DNA of 64,000 nucleotides from Candidatus Methanomethylophilaceae archaeon (GTDB taxonomy: Archaea; Thermoplasmatota; Thermoplasmata; Methanomassiliicoccales; Methanomethylophilaceae), in contig JAFXUX010000037.1 of assembly GCA_017524805.1 (NCBI GenBank), positions 1 to 64,000 on the forward strand, given 5' to 3'. Made by a program: the position numbers and the translations under genes. Numbering within the stretch: position 1 is the first letter of the stretch; each line of letters begins with the position of its first letter. Below are positions 4,698 to 46,262 of this stretch, piece after piece. Below the pieces are notes generated by a model that did not search any database, had not been told where the DNA came from, and saw only the letters and a list, made by a program, of their open reading frames with translations.

Positions 4698-6074
4698 CTA
4701 TAAATGGTTCGTGGATCGACGGCGCCCGATGATATCGGATGCCTCCATGAGGAACTCTCTGGAGCGCCTCTCCGCGGCAGCTTTGTCCTTCGATTCAGAA
4801 TATACCCTGAACTTAGGCTCCGTCCCCGATGGGCGCATCAGGACCCAGCCATCGTCATAGTCTATCCTGAGGCCGTCGGTAAGGTTCGCTCTCTCGCCTT
4901 CGTGGCGCCTGGCTATATCGTTTATGACAAGGGATTTCAGATCGTCGGGACATTGCACGGCAGCTTTGATCGTGAAATATTTGGGCAAAGAATCCACCTG
5001 GGAATCCAAAGACCCATCCTTTGCCACAGCCTCCAGCATCTTGGCTATGGCCATCGCCCCGTCGCGGCAATACTGGTGGTCGGCGAATATCAGACCTCCG
5101 TTCTCCTCGCCGCCGAAGACCGCACCGTCGGCCATCATCTCGCGTGCGACTATAGGGGATCCGACGGCGGTATAGACGATTTCGCCGCCCGCAGACACCA
5201 CGGATTCCTCGATCACGCGCGACGCGGCCACGGTGGTCACGACTTTGCCGCCCCCGTTCTTAGATATGGCAGAGCGCCCCAATATTGCCAGAGACTGGTC
5301 TCCGGGGACATATCTTCCGGAGCCTGTGACGAAGACGCACCGATCAGCGTCCCCGTCGTGGGCCATGCCGAGATCGCATCCGGATTCTGCGGTGAGCCTC
5401 TTCAGATCGGCCAGATTGTCCTCGGTGGGCTCCGAATAATGGCCTGGGAACCTCCCATCTGGGGAGGCGTTTATGGTCAGCGCCTTCACGCCGAGCTTCT
5501 TCATCAGCAGAGGGGAAGTCAGCGAAGCGGCCCCGTTGGAGCAGTCCAGGCACACCTTCAGCCCGGCTTCCCTTATGAGTCCAGCATCGACTTTGGAGAC
5601 GACCGCGTCTATATAGGCCTCTCCCGCATCGGAAATGCGCGTGATCGAACCGACTCCGTCCCACCCAGGGCATTCCAGATCCATTTCGTAAGCGCTCTCT
5701 ATGGCGGCCTCCTCCTCATGGGAGCATTCGGTGCCATCGGACGATACGCATTTGATGCCGTTGAACTCCGGAGGGTTGTGGGAGGCGGTGATCATCACGC
5801 CCGCAGCGACATTCGGATGGGTTCTGACGTAATACTGCAGCGCCGGAGTCGGGACCATGCCCAGATCCATTATGTCTATGCCCATCGACAGAAGACCGGA
5901 TTCCACGGCGCAGACGACCATGTCCGAGGACGTGCGGGTATCCTTGGCAATAGCTATGACGCCAGGCCCCAGCACTTCCGCTATGGCTTTGCCCACTTTC
6001 AAGGCGAGCTCCGGAGTCATATACCCGTTGACTATCCCGCGTATGCCGTTCGTCCCGAACATCTTCATGGTCAT
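4698..6074 (-). CDS. glmM: phosphoglucosamine/phosphomannomutase (GlmM-type)
   Basis: About 458 residues, alpha-D-phosphohexomutase family. From the chosen ATG: MFGTNGIRG near residue 5, the phosphoserine loop TASHNP with Ser98, the metal site DGDADR at 240-245, the sugar loop GEENGG, and the C-terminal phosphate-binding RPSGTEPKFR. It isomerises hexose or hexosamine phosphates between the 1 and 6 positions, feeding the neighbouring nucleotide-sugar genes. The frame is open to a TTG at 6086, but ATG ACC ATG AAG ATG at 6074 fits the family start better. The gene ends in TAG, rare in this window, and TAA TAA follows in frame three codons later. Confidence 0.88.
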   Translation of the reverse strand: MTMKMFGTNGIRGIVNGYMTPELALKVGKAIAEVLGPGVIAIAKDTRTSSDMVVCAVESGLLSMGIDIMDLGMVPTPALQYYVRTHPNVAAGVMITASHNPPEFNGIKCVSSDGTECSHEEEAAIESAYEMDLECPGWDGVGSITRISDAGEAYIDAVVSKVDAGLIREAGLKVCLDCSNGAASLTSPLLMKKLGVKALTINASPDGRFPGHYSEPTEDNLADLKRLTAESGCDLGMAHDGDADRCVFVTGSGRYVPGDQSLAILGRSAISKNGGGKVVTTVAASRVIEESVVSAGGEIVYTAVGSPIVAREMMADGAVFGGEENGGLIFADHQYCRDGAMAIAKMLEAVAKDGSLDSQVDSLPKYFTIKAAVQCPDDLKSLVINDIARRHEGERANLTDGLRIDYDDGWVLMRPSGTEPKFRVYSESKDKAAAERRSREFLMEASDIIGRRRSTNHL

Positions 6075-13487: not shown

Positions 13488-13580
13488 TTTCTGTTATACC
13501 CGTAAATAGTATAAATTTATATTGATAATTTCTGTTATAATACTAAAAATACTCTAAAATTTCCTTATATTTCTGTTATA
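13488..13580. repeat. three 11-bp direct repeats at 41-bp period
   Basis: TTTCTGTTATA occurs at 13488, 13529 and 13570, with exactly 41 bases between starts. The first copy abuts the DUF4143 gene start codon, the second lies just beyond the palindromic TATA stretch, and the third lies inside the last codons of the ABC ATPase gene. The regular period, about four helical turns, suggests binding of one protein to the same DNA face. Confidence 0.7.
13510..13521 (-). promoter_or_regulatory. palindromic TATA element for DUF4143 ATPase
   Basis: TATAAATTTATA is a perfect 12-bp palindrome centred about 30 bases upstream of the ATPase ATG. It fits a TBP site for a leaderless or nearly leaderless message and is flanked by two of the 11-bp repeats. 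Confidence 0.5.
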
Positions 13581-14429
13581 CCAGGAAATATCAGGATTCC
13601 GTCGTCGGCTCTGCCTGTCCCTGCCTATCAGAGTCACCGAGATGCCGCCCATCTCCTCGTCATAGCCGACCCTCGCCCTCATGCCGAAGACTTTGCGTAT
13701 CATCTCGGGGGTTATGACCTCTTCCGCGGTGCCCATGGACTCGATGACGCCGCCTTTCATCACGATGATCCGGTCGCAATACCTCGCGGCCAGCTGCAGA
13801 TCGTGGGTCACGATGACCACCAGCATCCCGCGCTCCGACGCTATCTCCCTGCAGAGGTCCATGAGATCGAACTGATGATTGATGTCCAGATGGAGCGTGG
13901 GCTCGTCCAGGAGAAGTATCTCCGGCTCCTGAGCCAAAGCCTGGGCGATCATGACCCTCCTCCATTCGCCTCCTGATAGTTCATCGACTCCGCGGGCGCT
14001 GAACTCCAGGACTCCGACGGATTCCATCGCGGAGCATATCACTTCGATCTCGGATTCGGAGCCTTCGTCGAGAATCCCTGAGCGGGAATACCTGCCCATC
14101 CTGACCACCTCCATGACGGTGAACGGGAAGTTCATGGAAGAGTTCTGTTCCACCACGGCCATCACCCTGGAGCGGTCGCGGTCGGATAGGTTGCGGACGT
14201 CGATCTCCCCGAGGAATCCGGCTATGTCCTGGGACAGATCGGTCAGAACCACCTTCCCTCTGTCGGGGCTGTACTCAGATCTGATGCAATTCAGCAGAGT
14301 GGTCTTTCCCGATCCGTTCTGGCCCAATATGCCGAGGACCTCGCCTTTGGAAGCTCCGAATGTGATCCCGTCCAATATCCTCCTTTTGCCGTGCGAGAAT
14401 CCGACACCGTCCACTTCCATATTGGCCAT
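13554..14429 (-). CDS. FecE/BtuD-type ABC transporter ATP-binding protein (set 1)
   Basis: 291 residues with all ABC motifs: Walker A GILGQNGSGKTT (residues 33-44), Q-loop VVEQNSS, signature ELSGGEWRR, Walker B EILLLDEPT and the H-loop IVTHD. It energises uptake through the permease encoded immediately upstream; its ATG lies two bases beyond the permease stop. It ends in TAG, unusual in this window, and the last ~15 residues are encoded in AT-rich repeat sequence next to the DUF4143 gene, so the original 3' end may have been altered. If TAG were read through, the frame would continue 19 codons to a TAA. Confidence 0.9.
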   Translation of the reverse strand: MANMEVDGVGFSHGKRRILDGITFGASKGEVLGILGQNGSGKTTLLNCIRSEYSPDRGKVVLTDLSQDIAGFLGEIDVRNLSDRDRSRVMAVVEQNSSMNFPFTVMEVVRMGRYSRSGILDEGSESEIEVICSAMESVGVLEFSARGVDELSGGEWRRVMIAQALAQEPEILLLDEPTLHLDINHQFDLMDLCREIASERGMLVVIVTHDLQLAARYCDRIIVMKGGVIESMGTAEEVITPEMIRKVFGMRARVGYDEEMGGISVTLIGRDRQSRRRNPDISWYNRNIRKF

Positions 14430-25024: not shown

Positions 25025-27070
25025 ATGTCTGCCGCCAAAAAGCCCGACACAGAGGCCGACAACGATGCCATATTCGTCAGAGGCCATACCCTCGACAGGC
25101 AGCAGACCGCAGTCGTCAGAGACGAATCGTTCACCCAGCTTGTCGTCGCCGGAGCCGGCACAGGCAAGACCACCACCCTCATCGGGAAAGTGAAGTATCT
25201 GGTGGAGCACGACCGCGTGGAGCCCGGACGGATCCTTATGATCTCGCTGACCAACAACTCCGTCGCCGACCTCAGGAAAGCGGTCGAGAAAGAGTTCGGC
25301 CCGGGATTCGGGGCGGATATCATGACGATCCACGCCTTAGGCAACCGCATCCTCCGCAAGAAGCCCTGCGTCGGAACACAGAAAGCGAAGCTTATCGGCG
25401 GCATATGCGACGAGCTGGTCCAGACGGACAGGAAAAGCGCCGAAGCGATGATGTCTTACATCGACGGGCTCCGCAAGACATCTTACTCCTATCTGTCGTA
25501 CAACGGCAAGAGCATCGGCAACAAAGGGCTCAGAGCCGTGGCCGATGCCCTGTTCAAATGCGGCATCGACTGCGATTACACCCGGCCGGTCTAGTCCGAG
25601 ACCGACAGCAAACCCGGCTTCATAACGGTGAAGCTTAAGAATTCGTCGTTCAAGGTTTACTCCGATTCCTCTGGCGTATCGGAAGCCGGAAGAGATCCGG
25701 AAGAGGCATGGGCAATCTTAAAGGCGAAGAAAGTGCCGATGAAAGCGCTGAACGTCAACGATCTGGCTTCTAACGTCATGCAGGCATGGGGGCTCAAAGT
25801 ACCGGAATCCTTGGGAAACCTGATATCCAGATGCAAATGCGCTGGCAAGAGCATCCGCGACCTGCTCAGGGCCAACGGAAGGAACCCCACATCCGTCCGC
25901 GGCGGCGCGGAGATCAAGATCAATCTTCTGGACAGGGTTTGGGACATGTATTCCATGGCCTGCGCGCAAGGAGATCTGGCAGACTACGAGGACATGGTCA
26001 TACAATCGACGGACATCGTCCGCAGGGGAGGGTTCGCCGGCAAGCGCTACGAAGCCGTCCTGATCGACGAATACCAGGACGTGTCGAAGATCCTGGTGGA
26101 TCTGGTGAAGGCCCTGAGAGGCGCAATGCGCTTCAGGCTGTTCTGCGTCGGTGACGACTGGCAAAGCATATACTCCTTCAGCGGAGGGGACGTGTGGCAG
26201 ATGTTCGACTTCCGCCTGATATGGGCGGGATGGGGGAGCATGAAGATCTCAAAGATCGAGAAGACATACAGGTCCCCCAAGCAGATGGTGGAGATGACGA
26301 ACCGCTTCGTGTCGAAGAATCCGGCGCAGATCAGGAAGGTCATAAAAGGGCTCCCGGCGACCAGGATCCCCCCGGTGCAGCTTCTGCCGGTGTCCGCGGA
26401 CAAAGACATAGCGAAGATGATTGCCAACCGCTTGGAATATGTGGATCCCGAGGACTCGGTCTTCATCATAGGCCGCACGCGCAAGGACCTCTTCGCGCTG
26501 GGATTCGGCAACGGGCCGTTCCTCTTCGATCCTGCGAACCCGGATTCCGGGTCGGTGAAAGTGGTTTACAGGGAATACGACGAGACCACGAAAGAATGGA
26601 AGCCCATCAGGGATCTGACATACCTCACCGCGCATTCTTCTAAAGGGCTCGAAGCGGACGTGGTTTTCCTGCTGGCCGACAGGGAGCGCGGAGGCTTCCC
26701 CAACGACGTCGAGGACGACTTCGGCATCCTGTTCGCCGGAAGAGAAGAGGGGATAGAATACGCCGAGGAACGCAGGGTGTTCTACGTGGCGATGACCAGA
26801 GCCAGAAAAAAGCTGTTCATGGTCAACAGAATGGCTCCCGGAGACAGCGCCCTCTCGTCGGATTCGCCGTTCATGAGCGAGATCATCTCGGACAACCTGG
26901 GAATGCTGGAGAAATCGACGCCCTGCTGCCCGCAATGCGCCGGGCCGATGATGATCCGCGACTCCCCGAAGACGGCGTTCTACGGCTGCCTCAATTATCC
27001 GGCATGCAAAGGCACCCTGCCGTTCAAAGGGCTGCGATGGATTGGCCTGGGTCTCAGAAGCGAAGGATGA
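25025..27070 (+). CDS. UvrD/Rep-family helicase with in-frame UAG (candidate pyrrolysine)
   Basis: The frame opens at ATG 25025 and meets TAG at 25592-25594. The same frame then continues without any other stop to TGA at 27070, giving 681 residues if UAG is decoded. Both parts belong to one superfamily 1 helicase: Walker A VVAGAGTGKTT (residues 40-50) lies before the TAG, while Walker B VLIDEYQD (about 345-352), the VGDDWQSIYSFSG block, the TAHSSKGLEADVVFL block and EERRVFYVAMTRAR lie after it. The C-terminus has a four-cysteine topoisomerase-type zinc ribbon (CCPQC...CLNYPAC). The UAG is codon 190, in the segment between motif Ia and the rest of the core. Neither fragment alone would be a working helicase. 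A pseudogene or sequence error remains possible. Confidence 0.82.
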
Positions 27071-33334: not shown

Positions 33335-33509
33335 ATGGGAACCGCCCCTCTCACCGGAACAGGATTGACCGAAGCGTATAGGGTTCTTTCGGCGGAGGTG
33401 GCTGGCGCTCAGCACGCTCACCCTTCTGGACGACCGTTTATGGGGAGCTGACAGGATTCTCCGCGTAAACGGAAACAGAATTCGTCACACATGAGATAAT
33501 AAATGATAA

Positions 33510-33517
33510 TTTATAAG
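33510..33517 (+). promoter_or_regulatory. TATA box of Shango-like operon
   Basis: TTTATAAG is about 40 bases before the ATG at 33554 in an AT-rich stretch. It puts transcription start about 15 bases before the first gene. Confidence 0.45.
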
Positions 33518-33553
33518 CAAAACACGATACCGCCCGCGCATCGGAGACAATAG

Positions 33554-35692
33554 ATGGCAGGAAAAATACACCCAGACGATTCATTCAAGGAAGGCCGCGC
33601 GATGGATCTTACCATTGAGGCAATGGAAAAGTACTGGAGATACGGAGGGGAGCCTTGCGAATATGTCCCCAGCCTGATCCTCCATCCGGGGTACAGAGAA
33701 TTGGAGTGGAAACGCCTGAGATACTATCTCCATTGGAGGTCCGACGTCTTCGATGGGCTCTACGGAGACACAGATTCCGGATACATATGGTTGCATTCGA
33801 TGGAGCTCCTGCTGGTGAATGATGACCCGGAAGAGGCCGACAGGTGCTTCAGAGGGATGATCGAAGCCTACAAAGGGCAGAACAATGCCGTGGACTACAT
33901 TCTCACGGCAACCAGCGCATTCCACCAGGCCTCGAACCACATGATGATATCGGATTATCCGGCCCTGAACAGAAGCCTCCGCACCCTCAGAATATGCATG
34001 ATCCTGTCTTCCGAAAAATTCGTCCCGCTGTCCGCCGAAGACATCAGATTCATAACCGGCCGCAAAGGGACCAAAATAGACAAGTACGCAGATGAAACGG
34101 CCATTATAGTCAGCGCCGCCCTCCATGAGATAGGGAGATGGCAGAAGCCCAACGGGATCCTCAGCCTCTGCGCGCGCCCTCTGGATACCTACGAAAAATA
34201 CCCGTTCGCATACGACATCTGGTACATCCCTAAGGAACTGAGATTCAGGTGCAGGGACATCAAAAACTCGGAGATATTCGTGGACCTGACCAAAAAGCTG
34301 CACAAAGCCTGCGTGCTGTACCTCGCCGGAAATGACGACATCGATTCCTTGGCCGGAAAATACGCTGCAACCCTCAGAAAGTGCATAGAAGCGCACAAAA
34401 ACGGAACCCTCGGCGAGATAACCGCGCCGTACAGGAAAACCGGGTCCCCATGGGATGAGACGATGCACAGCCATAACGGAAGATTCGAGGCCCATCGCAA
34501 GGATGGGGTATGGCCCAGCTACCGTTTCCAGTCGAGGATGAGGGAATACAGCATGGTGATGGTGCCTTCGACCGGGAGGATCGACTCCAACCCCCCTCCG
34601 GAACCGTGCTATTCCAGTATGACCCTTGGGATGTTCGGCGAATACCAATCCTGGAAAGACAGCGTTCTGAGGGGAGAGAAAACGATCGGCAGATGCCGCG
34701 GATTCTCATGGCTTCTGTCCCAGGAGATCCTCTGCGACCCGTCGCTCGACCCAGAATCAGCCATCCATGCGCTCACGCTCTGCAAAAACAATTCGGATTC
34801 GCCCATTGACAAGAGAATAGACAACGCAATCATTGAGCTGTGCCTCATCGACGATTTAAATCCCCCGGAGCTGGACAGATACTCTGACCTCGTCCGCGTC
34901 GAAGCTCTGACGACGCGCGCGCTTCTTTCGGAACCCCCAAGAGACCTGTCATCGGAACAGATAAGACGCTGCTGGGACGGAGAATCGGACGATCCCGCCC
35001 TAACCGATGCGGTCAATGCCTCCCTGAAGCTGCTCCATTCCAAAGGCTCGAGGCTCAGCACCATAGCGGACATGAGGACGATCACCCAGACCATATCGAC
35101 GTTCGAAGGATTCGCAGGCATGCCCATCTCCGTGGATGTGAAGATTTTCGGCCCCGGAAACAAAGATTTCGTCAGGATCATATCTTCCATCTGCAAAATC
35201 GCGTCCGCCGCGATTTCCGGGGAGAAATGCCCGCGCTGCCCCTCCGGATTCGGCTCCAATAACCGCGATATTGTGTGCGAAGCAACTCTCATAGCCCTGA
35301 AAGAAAGGGAGAGCAAAAAGCGGAGGGAATCCATGGCCAATATGCGCTTGGATATGTCAGCGATAGAGGAGGCGGAGAACGACCTCAGAGACATCGCGAA
35401 GATGCTGGGCGCGGAAGTCGAAGATGAGCCCCTGGATATTGGTAAGACTATAGTGAATATAGAAATTAAGACTATAGTGGAAAAAACGGGAGACCCCTGG
35501 AAAGACTTCGCAGCCATGCTCACCGAGGAACAGAAACAATACGCCAAAGAATGCCTTGAAGGGACGAAGGTCAACAGGACCTTGGAGAGGGCGGTCAACT
35601 CTGCCGCAGCCGACACAATAGGGGATATTGTCCTGGACAACGGCACCGCCATCGAAGATTACGCGCAGAAACTCAAAGAAACTGTTTGCTGA
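33554..35692 (+). CDS. sngA: TerB_N/TerB_C protein, Shango SngA-like
   Basis: 712 residues. The N-terminal part has the TerB_N pattern LRYYLHWRSDVFDGLYGDTDSGYIWLH (about 55-81, shown here only as landmark residues W62, R63, G74, Y77) and helical repeats after it. The last ~120 residues, ending in a DPWKDFAAMLTEEQKQY block, match TerB_C. A CPRCPSG motif near 559 could bind metal. TerB_N and TerB_C flank many stress and conflict systems, and in the Shango antiphage system a TerB-domain protein is encoded with a DUF2791 ATPase and a helicase. Here those two genes follow directly: the ATPase ATG is 11 bases after this stop and the helicase overlaps the ATPase. The downstream ATG at 33602 is an alternative start. 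Confidence 0.78.
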   Translation: MAGKIHPDDSFKEGRAMDLTIEAMEKYWRYGGEPCEYVPSLILHPGYRELEWKRLRYYLHWRSDVFDGLYGDTDSGYIWLHSMELLLVNDDPEEADRCFRGMIEAYKGQNNAVDYILTATSAFHQASNHMMISDYPALNRSLRTLRICMILSSEKFVPLSAEDIRFITGRKGTKIDKYADETAIIVSAALHEIGRWQKPNGILSLCARPLDTYEKYPFAYDIWYIPKELRFRCRDIKNSEIFVDLTKKLHKACVLYLAGNDDIDSLAGKYAATLRKCIEAHKNGTLGEITAPYRKTGSPWDETMHSHNGRFEAHRKDGVWPSYRFQSRMREYSMVMVPSTGRIDSNPPPEPCYSSMTLGMFGEYQSWKDSVLRGEKTIGRCRGFSWLLSQEILCDPSLDPESAIHALTLCKNNSDSPIDKRIDNAIIELCLIDDLNPPELDRYSDLVRVEALTTRALLSEPPRDLSSEQIRRCWDGESDDPALTDAVNASLKLLHSKGSRLSTIADMRTITQTISTFEGFAGMPISVDVKIFGPGNKDFVRIISSICKIASAAISGEKCPRCPSGFGSNNRDIVCEATLIALKERESKKRRESMANMRLDMSAIEEAENDLRDIAKMLGAEVEDEPLDIGKTIVNIEIKTIVEKTGDPWKDFAAMLTEEQKQYAKECLEGTKVNRTLERAVNSAAADTIGDIVLDNGTAIEDYAQKLKETVC

Positions 35693-35703
35693 AAGGAGAG
35701 GAA

Positions 35704-37005
35704 ATGGAAGACGACAGCGGAAAGACCCCGGCAGTCCCCAAAAGGACGCTCAACATAATGATGAACGCGCTTTCCTCGGGCGTAGTCCCGCGCAGAGGCC
35801 TGGAATTCATAGCCGTGGGAAGGAAAGCCGAGACGGCGACCTTCGTGCGCGACATGGAGGACACAGCGGAAGGTGGCGGAGCATTCAGATTCATATCCGG
35901 CCGCTTCGGAAACGGGAAAAGCTTCCTGACCCAGATGATACGCACCAACGCCATGGACAAAGGATTCGTGGTCATGGACGCGGATCTGGCCGACAGCCGC
36001 AGGCTCACCGGATCCAAAAAGGAAGGCCTGAACACCTACAAAGAGCTGATAAAGAACATGGCCGTCCGCACCCGCCCGGACGGCGGAGCGATCGAAAGCG
36101 TCCTGCAGGAATGGATCGACGCGGCCACCGAAGAAGCTACAAAGAAACTCGGTAAGAAGCCGGACGACGACGCGGTGGAACTCATCCTCAAAGAATCCGT
36201 TGCAGATCTGGGCGGCCTTCAGAACAGCCGCGATTTCGCCAAGGCCCTGCTGAGCTACTGGAAGGACCTCTCCGAAGGCAAGGACGACATCCCCGCGCTG
36301 AGATGGCTGAAGGGTGAGATCGAGCTGAAGAGGGATTCTAGGAAGCTGCTCGGCGTCGATTCGACCATAGGGGACGACAACTGGTACGGATTCGTGAAGC
36401 TCTGGGCCAGATTCGCCGTCAATATCGGATACAAAGGGCTGATAGTCTTCCTCGACGAGGCCGTCGTCCTCTACAAGCTGCAGAACAAAGTCGCCAGGAA
36501 CAACAACTACGAACGCATCCTCTCGATATTCAACGACATAATGCAGGGGAAATCGTCGCATCTGTCCGTGTACATGTGCGGCACCCCGGAATTCATCGAG
36601 GACCCGAACCGCGGGCTCTACAGCTACGAAGCCCTCAGATCCAGGCTGGTAGGCGGCAGATACGAGAACGGCTACGACAACTTCCTCGGCCCGGTCATAA
36701 GGCTGCGCCCGCTCACCAACGAGGAGATCTACGTCCTGCTCAGGACCATCAGGAACCTGCACGAGCAGAAATACGAGTACGCATCCAAGGTCACCGACGA
36801 GAACCTGAAGGAATACCTCGCGGCGATCCTGTCGTCGGTATCGGCGTCGATGCTCACGCCCAGAGAGATAACCAGAGATCTGATCAGCCTGCTGGACGTC
36901 CTGAAGCAGAATCCGGACGCGAAATTCGAGGATCTTGTGACTGGAAGGACTTTGGAGCCCGATCGCAACCCGGACGACGACCTGATCGATGATTTGGAGA
37001 TATGA
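35704..37005 (+). CDS. sngB: DUF2791 (BrxD-like) P-loop ATPase, Shango SngB-like
   Basis: 433 residues from ATG 35704, chosen because AAAGGAGAGG lies five to eight bases upstream; an ATG at 35686 overlaps sngA. Walker A GRFGNGKSF is at 66-74 and Walker B LIVFLDEAV near 246-254. A sensor-like YMCGTPEFIEDPNRGLY block and RPLTNEEIYVLL follow, as in the DUF2791 ATPases found in BREX (BrxD) and Shango. It probably couples ATP use to sensing or loading of the helicase. Its stop overlaps the ATG of the helicase gene (ATGA). Confidence 0.85.
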   Translation: MEDDSGKTPAVPKRTLNIMMNALSSGVVPRRGLEFIAVGRKAETATFVRDMEDTAEGGGAFRFISGRFGNGKSFLTQMIRTNAMDKGFVVMDADLADSRRLTGSKKEGLNTYKELIKNMAVRTRPDGGAIESVLQEWIDAATEEATKKLGKKPDDDAVELILKESVADLGGLQNSRDFAKALLSYWKDLSEGKDDIPALRWLKGEIELKRDSRKLLGVDSTIGDDNWYGFVKLWARFAVNIGYKGLIVFLDEAVVLYKLQNKVARNNNYERILSIFNDIMQGKSSHLSVYMCGTPEFIEDPNRGLYSYEALRSRLVGGRYENGYDNFLGPVIRLRPLTNEEIYVLLRTIRNLHEQKYEYASKVTDENLKEYLAAILSSVSASMLTPREITRDLISLLDVLKQNPDAKFEDLVTGRTLEPDRNPDDDLIDDLEI

Positions 37006-39140
37006 CCGACAGATTCGACAGCCTCCCGTGGTTCCTCCGCGAATACATCCATGCCAACCGCTGGGAATCATTCAGAAGCGTCCAAGAGAAAGCGTTCGAC
37101 ATCCTTTTCGGGACGGACCGCCACCTTCTGATATCATCGGAAACGTCCAGCGGAAAGACCGAGGCCGCCCTCTTCCCGGCGATATCGTCGATATACAGCA
37201 ACCCGCCCAGAAGCGTCGGAGCCCTTTATGTGGGGCCGCTGAAAGCGCTCATCGACGACCAATTCGAAAGGCTGGAGCCGATGCTGAAGGATTCCTACAT
37301 CGAAGTCACCGGCTGGCACGGGGACATAAGCCTCCAATCCAAGGCGAAGCTCCTGGAAGTGCCCTCCGGGATCCTGCAGATAACCCCAGAATCCCTGCAG
37401 AACATCGTGGCTTCCAGGCCGGAGGATCTGGAGAGGCTGTTCGGAGATTTGAGATTCGTGATCATAGACGAAGTCCACGCATTCATGGGCTCGGACCGCG
37501 GCCAACAGCTTCTGTGCTGCCTTGAGAGACTTGATATGCTGGCCCATTGCGAGCCCAGACGGATAGGCCTCTCTGCCACCATCGCAGATACGGGATCCGT
37601 TGCGGAATGGTTATCAGCCAACACAGGAAGGGAAACGGCGGTGGTTACCGACCGGCCGACGGCCAAAAGAGATCTCATCATCTACTACAGCCGCTTCCCT
37701 TCGCCCGCAGAGGATCCCAACCCGAGAAAGAAGTCCGTCAACTCGTTCTATAAGCTACTGTACAAAGAGATCCGCGGCAGGAATTGCATTGTGTTCACCA
37801 ACAGCAGGGTCACCGCGGAAAGGACGGCCAGATCCCTCAAGAAGATGGCCGAGGACGCCAAAGATCCCGACGTCATCCACGTCCATCACGGCAGCATATC
37901 CAAGGAGCTCAGAAAATCGGCCGAAGAAAACCTAAAGGACCCTTCCAAGAAAACGGTGACCGTTTCGACCGTCACCCTGGAGCTTGGGATCGACGTGGGA
38001 TCCCTGGACGCGGTGATCCAGATCGATACCCCATACACCTGCTCCAGCTTCGTCCAGAGGATGGGGCGCTCAGGCAGAAGAGGCGGCGCCCAGATCATGA
38101 GGATGTTCTGCCGGGAAGACCAGGAGAAATGGTGGTCATCGGTCGAGGGCGTGTCCATGGACCTGATAAAAGGCATAGCCATAGCGACGCTGGCCGAAGA
38201 GGGCTGGACCGAATCCGAATCGGAGCCTTCCCTGCCGTATGGTCTCCTGTTCCATCAGACCATGGAATGCATGAGGCACGGTACCGGGACGAAATTCTCC
38301 CGGCTTCTCTCCGACGTCCTGCCGATGTATCCGTTCAGGAACATAAAGAAGGAAGAATACGCCGAGCTGGTCAGATACATGATCTCCGTCGGCATCATCA
38401 TGAAGATGGACGACGGGACCTTGCTGATCACCGACAAAGGAGAGAAGATCTCTTCGGACAGGGATTTCTGCTCCGTATTCACCGTCAAAAAGGAGATAGA
38501 GGTCAGCTGCGACGGCAAAGGGGTGGGCACCATCCAGGAGATGCCCAAGCAGGGAGACCTGATCCAGCTGGCCGGAAGAATCTGGAAGGTCGTGGAAATC
38601 AACGGGAAATCGCGCTCCGTGGAAGTGGAGGAGACCGAGGGATCCGCGGACACCCTGTGGAAATCCGGGGTGCCGGAAACCGACAACAGGATTATGGAGC
38701 GCATGCGGGAGATCCTGTCCTCGGATGAAGGATACGGTTTCCTCGACGCGTCGGCCTCGGAAGAGCTTTCGGCGAGCAGAAGGATGGCGATCCAATCAGA
38801 AATGCTGAAAGGCATAGTGGAAACTGATTATGGGTATCGCATCTACCCCTGGATCGGGACGAGAGCGTTCGATACCCTGTGCAGAGTCCTGAGGATGGTA
38901 TGCGACAAGGTCCTGGAAAGGCCGCCTTATTTCGCTGACGTGATGACCGAATTGGATTGGGGAGAGCTTCTGGAATACATCGAAAGGTATTCCGACAAAC
39001 GTTTCGCCGCCGACCTCATCGGAGATGACAGGCTGGAATTCGGGAAATACGACCGCTATGTTCCAGAAGATCTTTTGATGAAATCTTTGGCCGAAGACAA
39101 GCTGGATTTCTCGTATCTGGATGTTCTTAGGGATTTCTGA
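37002..39140 (+). CDS. sngC: Lhr/BrxHI-like DEAH helicase, Shango SngC-like
   Basis: 712 residues. The superfamily 2 motifs are intact: SSETSSGKTEAAL (Walker A, near 44-56), ITPESL, FVIIDEVHAF (DEVH, near 158-167), LSATIAD, VTVSTVTLELGIDVGSLDAVIQ, and motif VI RMGRSGRRGG. The remaining ~300 residues form the winged-helix and C-terminal parts of Lhr-like helicases. It closes the three-gene operon, overlapping sngB by four bases. In Shango and BREX type 2/3 loci a helicase of this group acts with the DUF2791 ATPase on invading DNA. The product is predicted to be cytoplasmic. Confidence 0.87.
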   Translation: MTDRFDSLPWFLREYIHANRWESFRSVQEKAFDILFGTDRHLLISSETSSGKTEAALFPAISSIYSNPPRSVGALYVGPLKALIDDQFERLEPMLKDSYIEVTGWHGDISLQSKAKLLEVPSGILQITPESLQNIVASRPEDLERLFGDLRFVIIDEVHAFMGSDRGQQLLCCLERLDMLAHCEPRRIGLSATIADTGSVAEWLSANTGRETAVVTDRPTAKRDLIIYYSRFPSPAEDPNPRKKSVNSFYKLLYKEIRGRNCIVFTNSRVTAERTARSLKKMAEDAKDPDVIHVHHGSISKELRKSAEENLKDPSKKTVTVSTVTLELGIDVGSLDAVIQIDTPYTCSSFVQRMGRSGRRGGAQIMRMFCREDQEKWWSSVEGVSMDLIKGIAIATLAEEGWTESESEPSLPYGLLFHQTMECMRHGTGTKFSRLLSDVLPMYPFRNIKKEEYAELVRYMISVGIIMKMDDGTLLITDKGEKISSDRDFCSVFTVKKEIEVSCDGKGVGTIQEMPKQGDLIQLAGRIWKVVEINGKSRSVEVEETEGSADTLWKSGVPETDNRIMERMREILSSDEGYGFLDASASEELSASRRMAIQSEMLKGIVETDYGYRIYPWIGTRAFDTLCRVLRMVCDKVLERPPYFADVMTELDWGELLEYIERYSDKRFAADLIGDDRLEFGKYDRYVPEDLLMKSLAEDKLDFSYLDVLRDF

Positions 39141-40970: not shown

Positions 40971-43900
40971 TTATGCCACGCGGCTGAGAACCTTCCCGTC
41001 TCCGGCGAAAGACTTCCCTGCGAGGTTGCTGGCGGTCGGGTCGAGTTTGCTCACCCCATCCATGAACGTCAGACCATAGAACGCGTTCTTGCCTACGTCG
41101 AAAAGGTCCCAGGAGAAAGTCGCGAAAGCCAGAGGCACGCCGCTGAATGCGCTGGCCCCTATAGTCAAGGCCGAAGAGAGATCCATGCCGTACAGCTTGG
41201 TGCATCCGAAGAACGCGTAGCTTCCGATGCTCTTCGCCGATGTGTTCACGTAGACGAGCCCGGTGCATCCTGCGAAAGCCTTGAATCCAACGGTTTCGAC
41301 GTCTCCGAGGTAAGCGTAGATCAAAGTCTCGCACTTGTAGAACGCCTGGTCCGCGATGGCCCTCACCTTGAATGAAAGCGAGCCGTACTTGACCTCGCTT
41401 AGGACGGAGATCGCGGATATGCTGCCTTCATAGCCCACCAAGGAAACCTCGTTGGGCATGATGGAGGTCACGGAATAGACCAGACCGTCGACGGTTATCT
41501 TGGCGCCGACCTTGGGGCATTCGTAGAGCTTGGAATCCGCTCCCATGAAGGTCTTGCCTGCAAGCCCGGCGGCGTCCTCGGTGATGGCCGCGCCATCGGT
41601 AGAGTAGAAGAATGCCCTGAAGAAGGCGTTCTTCCCGACGTATGCGAGCGAATCGGAGAATACGAGCGATTCCAACGCTCTGCACTCGCTGAATGCGCTG
41701 GCATCGATCGTCACGACGGACGTGAGGTCCAGATTCTTGAGGGGGCATCCGAAGAAGCAATATGTTCCGAGATATGGTGCCGAGACCTTCACTCCAACGA
41801 GACTGGTACAGTTCGCAAAGGCCCTATCGCCTATCATGGAGACCGCACCGAGATCGGCGTATTCCAGGGTGGTGCACCCATAGAACGCCTTTGCAGACAC
41901 GGAATCCACGGTGTAAGCCGATCCGCCGTAGCTCACGCAGACCGGGACGATAAGGCTGGATATGCTTCCCTCATACCCGGTGATGGTAACGCTGGATTCG
42001 CTGTCGATGGAATACTGAATGCCGTCCATCACGAAGGAGCTACCCACGGAAAGGCGCTCATAGAGCTTGGAATCGCTTCCGACGAAGGTCTTCCCCTTGA
42101 GGTCGCTGGCCGTCACCTTCAAAGCAGAGCCGTCGGCCCCGTAGAACGTCACGGCATTGAACGCATTGGAATAGACTTTGGACAGCTCATCGGAGAATGT
42201 TATGGAATAAATCCCAGAGGTGTTGTGGAAAGCATATGCTCTAATCTCCTTGGACCCGGAGATGTCGACGTATCTGAGCGATGGGCAATCCAGGAAGTAG
42301 TAGCCCCTGAGGACCTCCATATCCACGACCGCGGAAACGAGGCTGGAGCAGTACTCAAACACTCTGGTGCCGCTGGCCGGAATCGCCGATATATCGGCGA
42401 AAACGATTGAATTGCATTTATAGAAGGCCTTGTCGGCGATGTACGTGACCTTGAATTCGAGGCCCTTGTACTCGACGTGATCGGGCGCTATGACGACGGT
42501 TGGGTTGCCCTGATATCCGGACAGCGAAACTTCCAACGGTACCGCGGAGGTGATCGTGTACTTGAGGCCGTCGACATAGAATGTCTCACCGACTGCGATG
42601 TCGACGCATTGGAGGACTCCGTCTATGACGTAGAATTCCTTGCCGGCGAGGTTTCCGGCGGTCTTCCTGACTTCGGCGCCATCGACCATGAATTTGAGAG
42701 AGCCGAGGGCTTGGGTCCCCAGATCGGTGAGCGCATCGGAGAATTTGATGTGCGTGATGGCCATGCTTCCGTAGAATGCGTAGCCCATGATGCTCTTGGC
42801 GCCGATGGTGACATCGGACAGCGAGGGGCTGCTGGCGAAAGCCTTCATCCCTATGGTCGGAACGCTTCCGGTGTCGACGGAAACGAGAGAGCTTCCGAAG
42901 AACGCCTTCTCGCCTATCGAATCCACTGAGAACTTGTAGAGTCCCACTGACACCTCGGAAGGCACGGTGAGTTCCGTGATCTTCTCTTCGCTTCCGGTCA
43001 GAGAGACGGAGCCATCGGAGATCACAGTGTAATTCAATCCTCCCACGGAGAACGTCTCCCCGATTGCAGGGACGGCCATCAAAACGGAATCAGAACCGGT
43101 GAACTCCTTTCCAGCGAGGTTGGCGGCGTTCTTCTTCAGCTCATTCCCGCTGAAATCGAGGAACTTCAAGGATCCGAGGGCTTGGGTCCCCAGATCGGTG
43201 AGCGCATCGGAGAATTTGATGTGCGTGATGGCCATGCTTCCGTAGAATGCGTAGCCCATGATGCTCTTGGCGCCGATGGTGACATCGGACAGCGAGGGGC
43301 AGCTGGCGAAGGCCTTCATCCCTATCGTCGGAACGCTTCCTGTATTGACGGAAACGATGGGACTTCCGAAGAACGCCTTCTCGCCGATGGATTCGACTGC
43401 GAGAGCCTTTCCTTTGTAGGTCACAGATGCGGGCAAAGATACTTCAGTCTTGTCCGAGGAACATCCCGTGACGGACACAGACTTCATGTCCTGGAGGACC
43501 GTGTATTCGATGCCGTCGAACGAGAAGACTTCGCCCTCTGTGATATCTGAGGCTTTCACGACTTTGACCGTGCAGGTCGCGGTCTTGGCGCCATCTACGG
43601 TGGTGACGGTTATGGTAGCAGTCCCAACCGCAACCGCAGTGACGACTCCTGACGCGGATACTTTGGCGACAGCCGTCTTGCTGGATTTCCATGTAACGGA
43701 CTTATCGGTCGCATCGGAAGGCAACACAGTGGCCGTCAAAATCGCAGTAGATCCTTTTTCGATCGATATGGACGAAGCATTCAGAGTCACTCCGGTGACA
43801 TTGACCGTCGGAGCGACCACTGTCACGACGCATGTGGCGGTCTTGGATCCGTCATTAGTTGTGACTGTAATCGTTGCTGTTCCGGGCGCGACCGCGGTGA

Positions 43901-46262
43901 CAACGCCTGCCGAAGACACTTTGGCGACGGCTGTCTTGCTGGATTTCCAGGTTACCGATTTGTCTGTCGCATCGGAAGGCGACACGGTAGCGGTAAGAGT
44001 GTGCTTTTCTCCAGCCTCCAAAGAGAGCTTAGAGGAATCAAGCGAAACACCGGTGACGTTGACCATCGGAGCGACCACTGTCACGACGCATGTGGCGGTC
44101 TTGGATCCGTCGGTTGTTGTGACAGTGACTGTCGCAGTTCCGGGCGCAACAGCTGTGACAACTCCTGACGTGGATACTTTGGCGACAGTAGTCTTGCTGG
44201 ATTTCCAGGTCACGGACTTATCAGTTGCATCGGATGGTGACACGGTGGCTTTAAGAGTGTGTTTTTCTCCGGTCTCAAGGGAGAGCCTGGCAGAATCAAG
44301 CGATACGCCTGAAACTGGAACATTGGGGTTAGTTACGGTAACCAAACTAATGTCCGAGAAACTCCCGTCTTCGGTGGTCACAAATATGTTGGCTTTGCCT
44401 TCCTTGATTGCTGTGACCACTCCAGTAGAACTTACGGTTGCGACGCCTGCATCACTGGACCTCCAGCTCACATTCTTGTTGGTTGCGTCGGAAGGCGAGA
44501 TGTTCACAGTCAGATTCGCGGTCTTACCGACATCGAGCGAGAGCGTGTCGGGCTTGATATCCACGCCTGTGACTCTAATATCAGAAGATCCAATAACCAC
44601 TGCACCCTCCACGAGGTTGGGCGAAATTAACTCACCAGCAACATTGAACATCTCGGTGCGGACGATCTTGACTGGGAGGCTCCCGGAAGCATCTCCTACG
44701 ACATCGAACACCAAAGTCGCCAGAACCCCGGTCGAAGTCACGTCGCTCACGGCTGAGTTCTCAGCATAGAAGAAATACGGGTTGATAGTGTAGTCTTCGT
44801 TGGGCGTGATGGCCATCAGGGTGCCGGATTTGAGCTCCTTGAGCGTAAGGCCCTGGCCGTATTCTATTTCGAAATCCGATCCGAAGAATCCCCCGTTGGA
44901 GTCTACGGTTATATTGACTTCGACATTCTTAGCTCCAGGCTCGGACTGGACCGCATCGACGCTTATTGATACGCAATTAGATGAGGCATTCCTCGTTACG
45001 ATGACCTTGCAGGTTGCTTTATAACCGCCATCTGAAGTGGTGACAGTTATCGTTGCCGTTCCGGTGGAAACGGCTGTAACAGTCCCATCGCTCACCGTGG
45101 CAACAGATGTGTTGCTTGATTTCCAAGTCAAATTTTTGTTTGTCGCGTTAGAAGGGTTCACAACGGCGTTGAGATTGGTTTTTTCTTTGACTTTGAGACT
45201 GAGAGAGGTTTTGTCCAATGACACTCCTGTGACACTGACGACTTTCTCTTTGACCTCAACAAGACATATCGCCGGAATAACGTCTCCTCCAACTGAGGTT
45301 GCTATTATATAAGCGGAACCTGCCGATTTGGCAGTGACCTTTCCGTTGGAATCCACAGAAACGATGTCGCCCTGACTGGAAGTCCATGTCACCCTCTTAT
45401 CAGTGGTATTTTGAGGCAGAACCGTGGCTTTGAGAGTGAAAGTATCGCCGGTTTCTAAGCTGAGAGAATCGGCGTTAAGAGTTATGCTGGTGGCTTTGAT
45501 CCCTGCATCCACTGTTACGCGGCAAACACTGGAAAAACTGCCATCCTGGGTAGTGACAAATATTGATGCCGTACCAGACGACATGCCGGTGACGACACCA
45601 GTGCTGCTAATAGTAGCCACATCTGGATTGCTAGATCTCCATGATACATTTTTATTAGTCGCATTAGACGGGGACACAGATGCGGTAAGGGTGGCCGTTT
45701 GGCTCGCCTTAATAGAAACCGTGGAGGGAATCACACTCACTCCCGTCACAGGGACACGAACGGTAGACGTGACTATCGCTCCGTCCTCGCAGATGACTTC
45801 CACATCCTTGCCAGCAACATTGAAAACTTCCGAAAAATCAAGTATTATCGGGAATTCCCCCGATTTGCCGCTAGGCGCATCGAAATACAATGTAACCAGC
45901 AAACCCTTCTGATCTATATCGTCGATAGACGAGTTCTCAAGGTAGAAAGGGTACGGATTCATGCTGTAATTATCATTCGGAGTGAGCGGCATTACCCCGG
46001 CACTTATTCCTGTGAGAGTAAGATTAGAATCGTATCCAATCTGGAATTCTCCGCCGAAGAATCCGCTGTTATCTTCGATAATTATGGGGACTTCGATGGA
46101 ACTGTCCCCACTCGTAGCATAAACGGTATCGATTATTATTATCAACTGCGGATTTTCCTCCGCATCAGCTTCTGACTCGAAGCCGATGAGAGCCGCAGAA
46201 AACAGTGTTATTGCCAACACGGCGATGAAGCCGTAAATGGCCGATTTCGTTTCGCATGCCAT
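40971..46262 (-). CDS. giant surface protein: cohesin-like, BIG2 and BspA leucine-rich repeats
   Basis: 1763 residues. A signal or anchor segment (about 9-27) is followed by cohesin-like domain 1 (38-168), three BIG2 Ig-like domains (171-424), cohesin-like domain 2 (427-560) and four more BIG2 domains (562-900). Then comes an ~860-residue array of BspA/LRR_5-type leucine-rich repeats, visible as recurring IGEKAFFG, IGMKAFASCPSLSDVTIGAKSI and AFYGS units. No C-terminal membrane anchor is seen. The domains are of adhesive or scaffolding type and typical of host-associated microbes. The gene shows recent internal duplication: 42703-42829 and 43174-43300 are identical. It is a tandem paralogue of the BIG2 protein encoded immediately upstream. 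Confidence 0.85.
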   Translation of the reverse strand: MACETKSAIYGFIAVLAITLFSAALIGFESEADAEENPQLIIIIDTVYATSGDSSIEVPIIIEDNSGFFGGEFQIGYDSNLTLTGISAGVMPLTPNDNYSMNPYPFYLENSSIDDIDQKGLLVTLYFDAPSGKSGEFPIILDFSEVFNVAGKDVEVICEDGAIVTSTVRVPVTGVSVIPSTVSIKASQTATLTASVSPSNATNKNVSWRSSNPDVATISSTGVVTGMSSGTASIFVTTQDGSFSSVCRVTVDAGIKATSITLNADSLSLETGDTFTLKATVLPQNTTDKRVTWTSSQGDIVSVDSNGKVTAKSAGSAYIIATSVGGDVIPAICLVEVKEKVVSVTGVSLDKTSLSLKVKEKTNLNAVVNPSNATNKNLTWKSSNTSVATVSDGTVTAVSTGTATITVTTSDGGYKATCKVIVTRNASSNCVSISVDAVQSEPGAKNVEVNITVDSNGGFFGSDFEIEYGQGLTLKELKSGTLMAITPNEDYTINPYFFYAENSAVSDVTSTGVLATLVFDVVGDASGSLPVKIVRTEMFNVAGELISPNLVEGAVVIGSSDIRVTGVDIKPDTLSLDVGKTANLTVNISPSDATNKNVSWRSSDAGVATVSSTGVVTAIKEGKANIFVTTEDGSFSDISLVTVTNPNVPVSGVSLDSARLSLETGEKHTLKATVSPSDATDKSVTWKSSKTTVAKVSTSGVVTAVAPGTATVTVTTTDGSKTATCVVTVVAPMVNVTGVSLDSSKLSLEAGEKHTLTATVSPSDATDKSVTWKSSKTAVAKVSSAGVVTAVAPGTATITVTTNDGSKTATCVVTVVAPTVNVTGVTLNASSISIEKGSTAILTATVLPSDATDKSVTWKSSKTAVAKVSASGVVTAVAVGTATITVTTVDGAKTATCTVKVVKASDITEGEVFSFDGIEYTVLQDMKSVSVTGCSSDKTEVSLPASVTYKGKALAVESIGEKAFFGSPIVSVNTGSVPTIGMKAFASCPSLSDVTIGAKSIMGYAFYGSMAITHIKFSDALTDLGTQALGSLKFLDFSGNELKKNAANLAGKEFTGSDSVLMAVPAIGETFSVGGLNYTVISDGSVSLTGSEEKITELTVPSEVSVGLYKFSVDSIGEKAFFGSSLVSVDTGSVPTIGMKAFASSPSLSDVTIGAKSIMGYAFYGSMAITHIKFSDALTDLGTQALGSLKFMVDGAEVRKTAGNLAGKEFYVIDGVLQCVDIAVGETFYVDGLKYTITSAVPLEVSLSGYQGNPTVVIAPDHVEYKGLEFKVTYIADKAFYKCNSIVFADISAIPASGTRVFEYCSSLVSAVVDMEVLRGYYFLDCPSLRYVDISGSKEIRAYAFHNTSGIYSITFSDELSKVYSNAFNAVTFYGADGSALKVTASDLKGKTFVGSDSKLYERLSVGSSFVMDGIQYSIDSESSVTITGYEGSISSLIVPVCVSYGGSAYTVDSVSAKAFYGCTTLEYADLGAVSMIGDRAFANCTSLVGVKVSAPYLGTYCFFGCPLKNLDLTSVVTIDASAFSECRALESLVFSDSLAYVGKNAFFRAFFYSTDGAAITEDAAGLAGKTFMGADSKLYECPKVGAKITVDGLVYSVTSIMPNEVSLVGYEGSISAISVLSEVKYGSLSFKVRAIADQAFYKCETLIYAYLGDVETVGFKAFAGCTGLVYVNTSAKSIGSYAFFGCTKLYGMDLSSALTIGASAFSGVPLAFATFSWDLFDVGKNAFYGLTFMDGVSKLDPTASNLAGKSFAGDGKVLSRVA
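42703..42829. repeat. 127-bp direct repeat, copy 1 (partner at 43174-43300)
   Basis: The two 127-base stretches are identical, 471 bases apart, within the leucine-rich repeat region of the giant surface gene. Perfect identity across synonymous sites indicates a recent duplication or gene conversion. Confidence 0.85.
43174..43300. repeat. 127-bp direct repeat, copy 2
   Basis: Partner of the identical stretch at 42703-42829; the two differ only beyond the ends of the repeat. Confidence 0.85.

Follow-up and report, generated by a model that had tools for sequence, protein, structure and literature searches.

An in-frame UAG, probably a pyrrolysine codon, in a UvrD/Rep-like helicase gene of a Methanomethylophilaceae genome

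A helicase gene on the forward strand of the window (the whole 64,000-nucleotide stretch of DNA analyzed here) very probably encodes one full-length protein with pyrrolysine at its single in-frame UAG, codon 190. In the host, a Methanomethylophilaceae-type metagenome-assembled genome of 1.95 Mb in 47 contigs, the window is contig C37; the named near relatives of this host are rumen Methanomethylophilaceae and Methanomassiliicoccaceae assemblies. The product would be a UvrD/Rep-like helicase with a C-terminal zinc ribbon, its UAG decoded as pyrrolysine by tRNA-Pyl(CUA) charged by a short PylS, through simple translation and without a special signal. Pyrrolysine as the inserted residue, and efficient read-through to full length, are what we infer from the sequence. 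The codon looks like a tolerated tyrosine-to-pyrrolysine change rather than a special switch, because dozens of the host's genes contain such a TAG, including one for RNA polymerase, and the helicase is just one of them.

Helicase reading frame and domains

Translation bore out the predicted frame, which runs from the ATG at 25025 to the TGA ending at 27070 and comprises 681 residues when its single internal stop, the TAG at 25592–25594 (codon 190), is read as sense. The original prediction had also held that the two pieces form one protein, and the domain evidence agrees. The Walker A motif AGAGTGKT (residues 42–49, 25148–25171) lies 5' of the TAG, and motif II (Walker B) DEYQD (residues 348–352, 26066–26080), SSKG (residues 538–541, 26636–26647), and TRAR (residues 591–594, 26795–26806) lie 3' of it, all seen in the translation and with their invariant residues present. 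The Pfam UvrD-helicase match spans residues 24–396 and crosses the TAG (E = 4e-38), and 18 orthologues from the family align through codon 190. A topoisomerase-type C4 zinc ribbon (PF01396) was matched at the C-terminus (26927–27028). All of these features are on the forward strand.

Walker A, DExQD, motif VI, and a UvrD fold were all found, as in superfamily 1A helicases, and comparisons of both sequence and fold place the protein nearest to the solved structures of UvrD, PcrA, and Rep. These proteins and DNA helicase IV share the superfamily 1A motifs and fold with the helicase studied here, which differs from them in having an extra strand-rich insertion and the C-terminal zinc ribbon. It scored well below every NCBIfam equivalog cut-off for UvrD, Rep, PcrA, and helicase IV; the top model was DNA helicase IV, with 202.7 of the 543 bits needed. 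In the AlphaFold2 model (mean pLDDT 80.7, pTM 0.71), residue 190 is predicted to fall within a short-stranded region (183–212) between the first motifs and DEYQD, and the overall TM-scores of ~0.5 probably reflect uncertain domain placement. A role in defence was considered and rejected, given that the similarity to GajB and RTasHel is weak and would be expected of any UvrD helicase. Elsewhere in the window, three genes at 33503–39140 (+) match PADLOC SngA (weakly), SngB, and SngC (both strongly) and so make up a Shango-like locus for defence, here in an archaeal genome, and a 1,763-residue open frame at 40971–46262 (−) has no PADLOC match.

UAG decoding in the host genome

A search for the pyrrolysine genes, on which the proposed decoding depends, found all of them. 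Contig C25 carries a complete pylT-pylS-pylB-pylC-pylD cluster, with tRNA-Pyl at C25:7127-7197 (anticodon CUA, cta in the DNA) followed by pylS, pylB, pylC, and pylD, and the four proteins each pass curated NCBIfam cut-offs. The PylS is short, at 277 aa, a form already described for the order (PMC3941956). The TAG-interrupted methylamine methyltransferase genes served as positive controls: mtbB and mttB lie downstream of the pyl genes on C25, mtmB is on contig C38, and in each the match continues through the in-frame TAG. The genome also has one normal aRF1 gene.

To count TAG usage across the genome, genes were called with a home-made dicodon model in which TAG was allowed as either sense or stop. 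A stop was assigned to 1,656 genes: TGA for 1,416 of them, TAA for 216, and TAG for only 24 (1.4%). A simple gene call in the window gave 34 TGA, 5 TAA, and 1 TAG terminators for 40 genes, so the observation that TAG is almost absent as a terminator there extends to the whole genome. The dicodon caller overcounts weak TAG sites, and its 154 raw internal sites were reduced to 60, in about 57 genes, by taking those with a coding signal above 8 nats on both sides; a few of the 60 are doubtful, such as C23:26093, which has negative local scores. In a control for which 40 open, coding-like codons were present on each side, we observed 35–46 TAG, 9–11 TAA, and 38–50 TGA sites. Most genes end in TGA, and tandem genes in the same frame should raise the internal TGA count. 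TAA ends nine times as many genes as TAG, yet has fewer internal sites, and when scaled to use as a terminator, TAG is found internally more than thirty times as often as TAA or TGA. Internal TAG therefore exceeds chance. Some termination at UAG is possible as well, since the aRF1 is normal and TAG seems to be the terminator of 24 genes.

Four further genes with TAG codons were noted. The sole called window gene ending in TAG is a phosphoglucomutase/phosphomannomutase (4698–6074, −); its next stop is three codons on, and read-through would add only four residues. An ABC transporter ATPase (13494–14429, −) has TAG at codon 292 and 19 more codons to a TAA, and its TAG may be either a terminator or a pyrrolysine codon. 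Citrate synthase (L103:13319-14722, −) and FeoB (L057:15951-17861, +) are TAG-interrupted at codons 76 and 153, respectively, and for both of them the genome holds a second homologue at another locus.

Two essential, single-copy genes are decisive. The tsaD/kae1 gene (C6:57447-58427, −) carries TAG as codon 119, immediately after the HxxxH stretch; its product can be aligned over its full length to archaeal Kae1 proteins of known structure and scores above the arch_KAE1 cut-off, and relatives have CAG, CTG, TTG, or CTC (Gln or Leu) at this codon. The rpoA2 gene, for RNA polymerase A'' (C7:52161-53633, −), has a TAG at codon 100. This TAG occupies one column in seven species (the window genome, G026, G027, G018, G006, G002, and G001) that form one fully supported branch on the rpoA2 tree, and elsewhere the column holds Lys, Met, or other residues. 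The alignment to solved A'' chains starts only near residue 110. Orthologues from across the order, however, can be aligned from residue 1 onward, which makes the segment upstream of the TAG part of the protein in this lineage. Retention of the UAG in seven species would be difficult to account for without its translation. With internal TAGs in both of these single-copy genes, UAG is almost certainly a sense codon in the host, and RNA polymerase and TsaD appear to depend on its being decoded.

The seven-species pattern points to a need for pyrrolysine in transcription throughout this clade. We lean towards a wider reading, in which UAG would have become an obligate sense codon in a rumen lineage of about seven sampled species through a fixed pyrrolysine codon in RNA polymerase A'', pyrrolysine would be needed for all transcription, and further UAGs, such as that of the helicase, would accumulate through drift at former Tyr, Gln, Leu, and Lys codons. 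Should the readings of RNA polymerase and TsaD hold, these rumen methanogens could not survive without pyrrolysine on any substrate, and annotation pipelines would truncate such proteins. The conserved rpoA2 TAG, which was not found in the literature searched, including the available passages on TAG-containing genes of relatives, is a more interesting lead than the helicase.

Origin of codon 190 and competing explanations

The alignment of helicase homologues across codon 190, proposed as a check on the original prediction, came out in two ways: the orthologues do align through the codon, but the near ones have tyrosine and none has TAG. A clear orthologue was found in only 19 of the 102 family genomes scanned, and none of the 18 besides the host carries the TAG. 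A broader residue comparison with one relative, over 210 kb, yielded few orthologues. A helicase with the same TAG was also absent from a scan of genome contigs. Codon 190 is TAT or TAC in the five nearest relatives, including an 89%-identical sister (TAT), and more distant relatives have Tyr, Phe, His, Val, Gly, Asn, Lys, and others in this variable column. The conservation of TAG among orthologues that is seen in the methylamine methyltransferases was therefore not found for the helicase; its TAG occurs in one species only, and the codon by itself is not conserved.

These comparisons place a change from tyrosine to TAG in the lineage of the host species. Both TAT and TAC are one base from TAG, and a single base change would have sufficed; the position is variable and is predicted to lie in a strand-rich segment between the helicase motifs. 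G026, G027, G018, G001, and G002 have the rpoA2 TAG and keep tyrosine in the helicase, so, on this distribution, the helicase TAG is younger than the rpoA2 TAG and arose in cells already reading UAG. By the time of the change, the cells would already have been decoding UAG as a matter of routine, since their RNA polymerase relied on it; TsaD of the host species relies on it too. The change was probably nearly neutral, given that column 190 is variable.

A recent nonsense mutation in a dying accessory gene, one that is missing from most relatives, is improbable, although it is the best of the alternatives. It would account for a TAG unique to the host genome and for the few family genomes with an orthologue. 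Loss of purifying selection downstream of the TAG was looked for, and constraint was seen to persist. Against the 89% sister, dN/dS was 0.12 before the TAG and 0.085 after it, as averaged over the whole branch, which leaves room for a very recent nonsense mutation. The helicase's own branch has 18 silent and 7 replacing changes before the TAG and 41 silent and 12 replacing changes after it, and no frameshift or second stop occurs in the 491 codons past it. Judged by these substitutions, both halves are under purifying selection. A TAG is also not a null mutation in this host, because UAG is evidently sense in tsaD and rpoA2. With the pyl genes present, this constraint past the codon upholds the core idea that UAG is read as pyrrolysine.

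Rather less likely is a sequencing or assembly error at a true TAT or TAC. The sequence comes from a metagenome assembly in which a base error at codon 190 is possible, and the TAT of the sister is one base off. Such errors would yield TAA and TGA too, whereas internal TAG stands far above TAA relative to terminator use, and many of the TAGs sit in real genes.

The suggestion of a conditional switch on the helicase, with a truncated product made without methylamines and the full-length protein with them, fared worse still, and we regard it as very unlikely. It draws on the published view of competition between Pyl-tRNA and release factor at UAG, in which early-terminated products are degraded; by the same account, UAG can be read as pyrrolysine without any special signal (PMC9499178). 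No PYLIS-like stem-loop beyond chance was found in the 100 nt after the helicase UAG (z = −0.63). The codon is also absent from the orthologues, which have tyrosine or a variable residue there, and RNA polymerase A'' and TsaD would need UAG to be read constitutively. In the available passages on 'Candidatus Methanomethylophilus alvus', very low use of TAG as a stop is taken as a sign of constitutive pyrrolysine expression (PMC4153887).

A split helicase made as two polypeptides, with termination at the UAG and re-initiation at the first in-frame start past it, GTG 25628, can practically be dismissed: this GTG does open a second frame, but no purine-rich ribosome-binding site is present in the 15 bases before it, none of the relatives aligned has a split gene, and the cut would fall inside a domain.

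Comparison with known systems

The reading we prefer for the helicase, a full-length protein with pyrrolysine at codon 190, has the same proposed mechanism as in the 'Pyl code' archaea, with UAG as a sense codon genome-wide. In those archaea, every TAG codon is reported to specify pyrrolysine (Kivenson et al., Science 2025). Because 24 apparent TAG terminators remain, the host, unlike them, stands short of demonstrated full reassignment.

Two members of the same order offer closer parallels. Ca. M. alvus has a complete pyl set, as does the host. In the available passages of its report, TAG makes up 1.6% of stops, 16 pyrrolysine proteins are predicted besides the methylamine methyltransferases, one of them annotated as a prophage helicase, and the authors argue that amber codons arising in frame are stably kept as mutations in cells of this type (PMC4153887). 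The host's count of genes with an internal TAG is higher, although the counting methods differ, and the present helicase was not identified in the portion of the alvus list available. The rumen isolate ISO4-H5 has TAG genes like the host's: 46 genes with in-frame amber codons are described, housekeeping genes among them (PMC5011839), and the helicase, rpoA2, and tsaD are not among the genes named in the passages available. With about 57 such genes in the host and 16 or 46 in these relatives, the helicase is not the unusual pyrrolysine protein outside the methyltransferases that it was first taken to be. Taken alone, it adds a further probable pyrrolysine protein to an order for which TAG-containing genes of this kind are already known from Ca. 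M. alvus and ISO4-H5. Beside them, it offers a datable case, in which a TAG that is younger than the UAG fixed in RNA polymerase of the host's clade would act as an ordinary sense codon in place of tyrosine.
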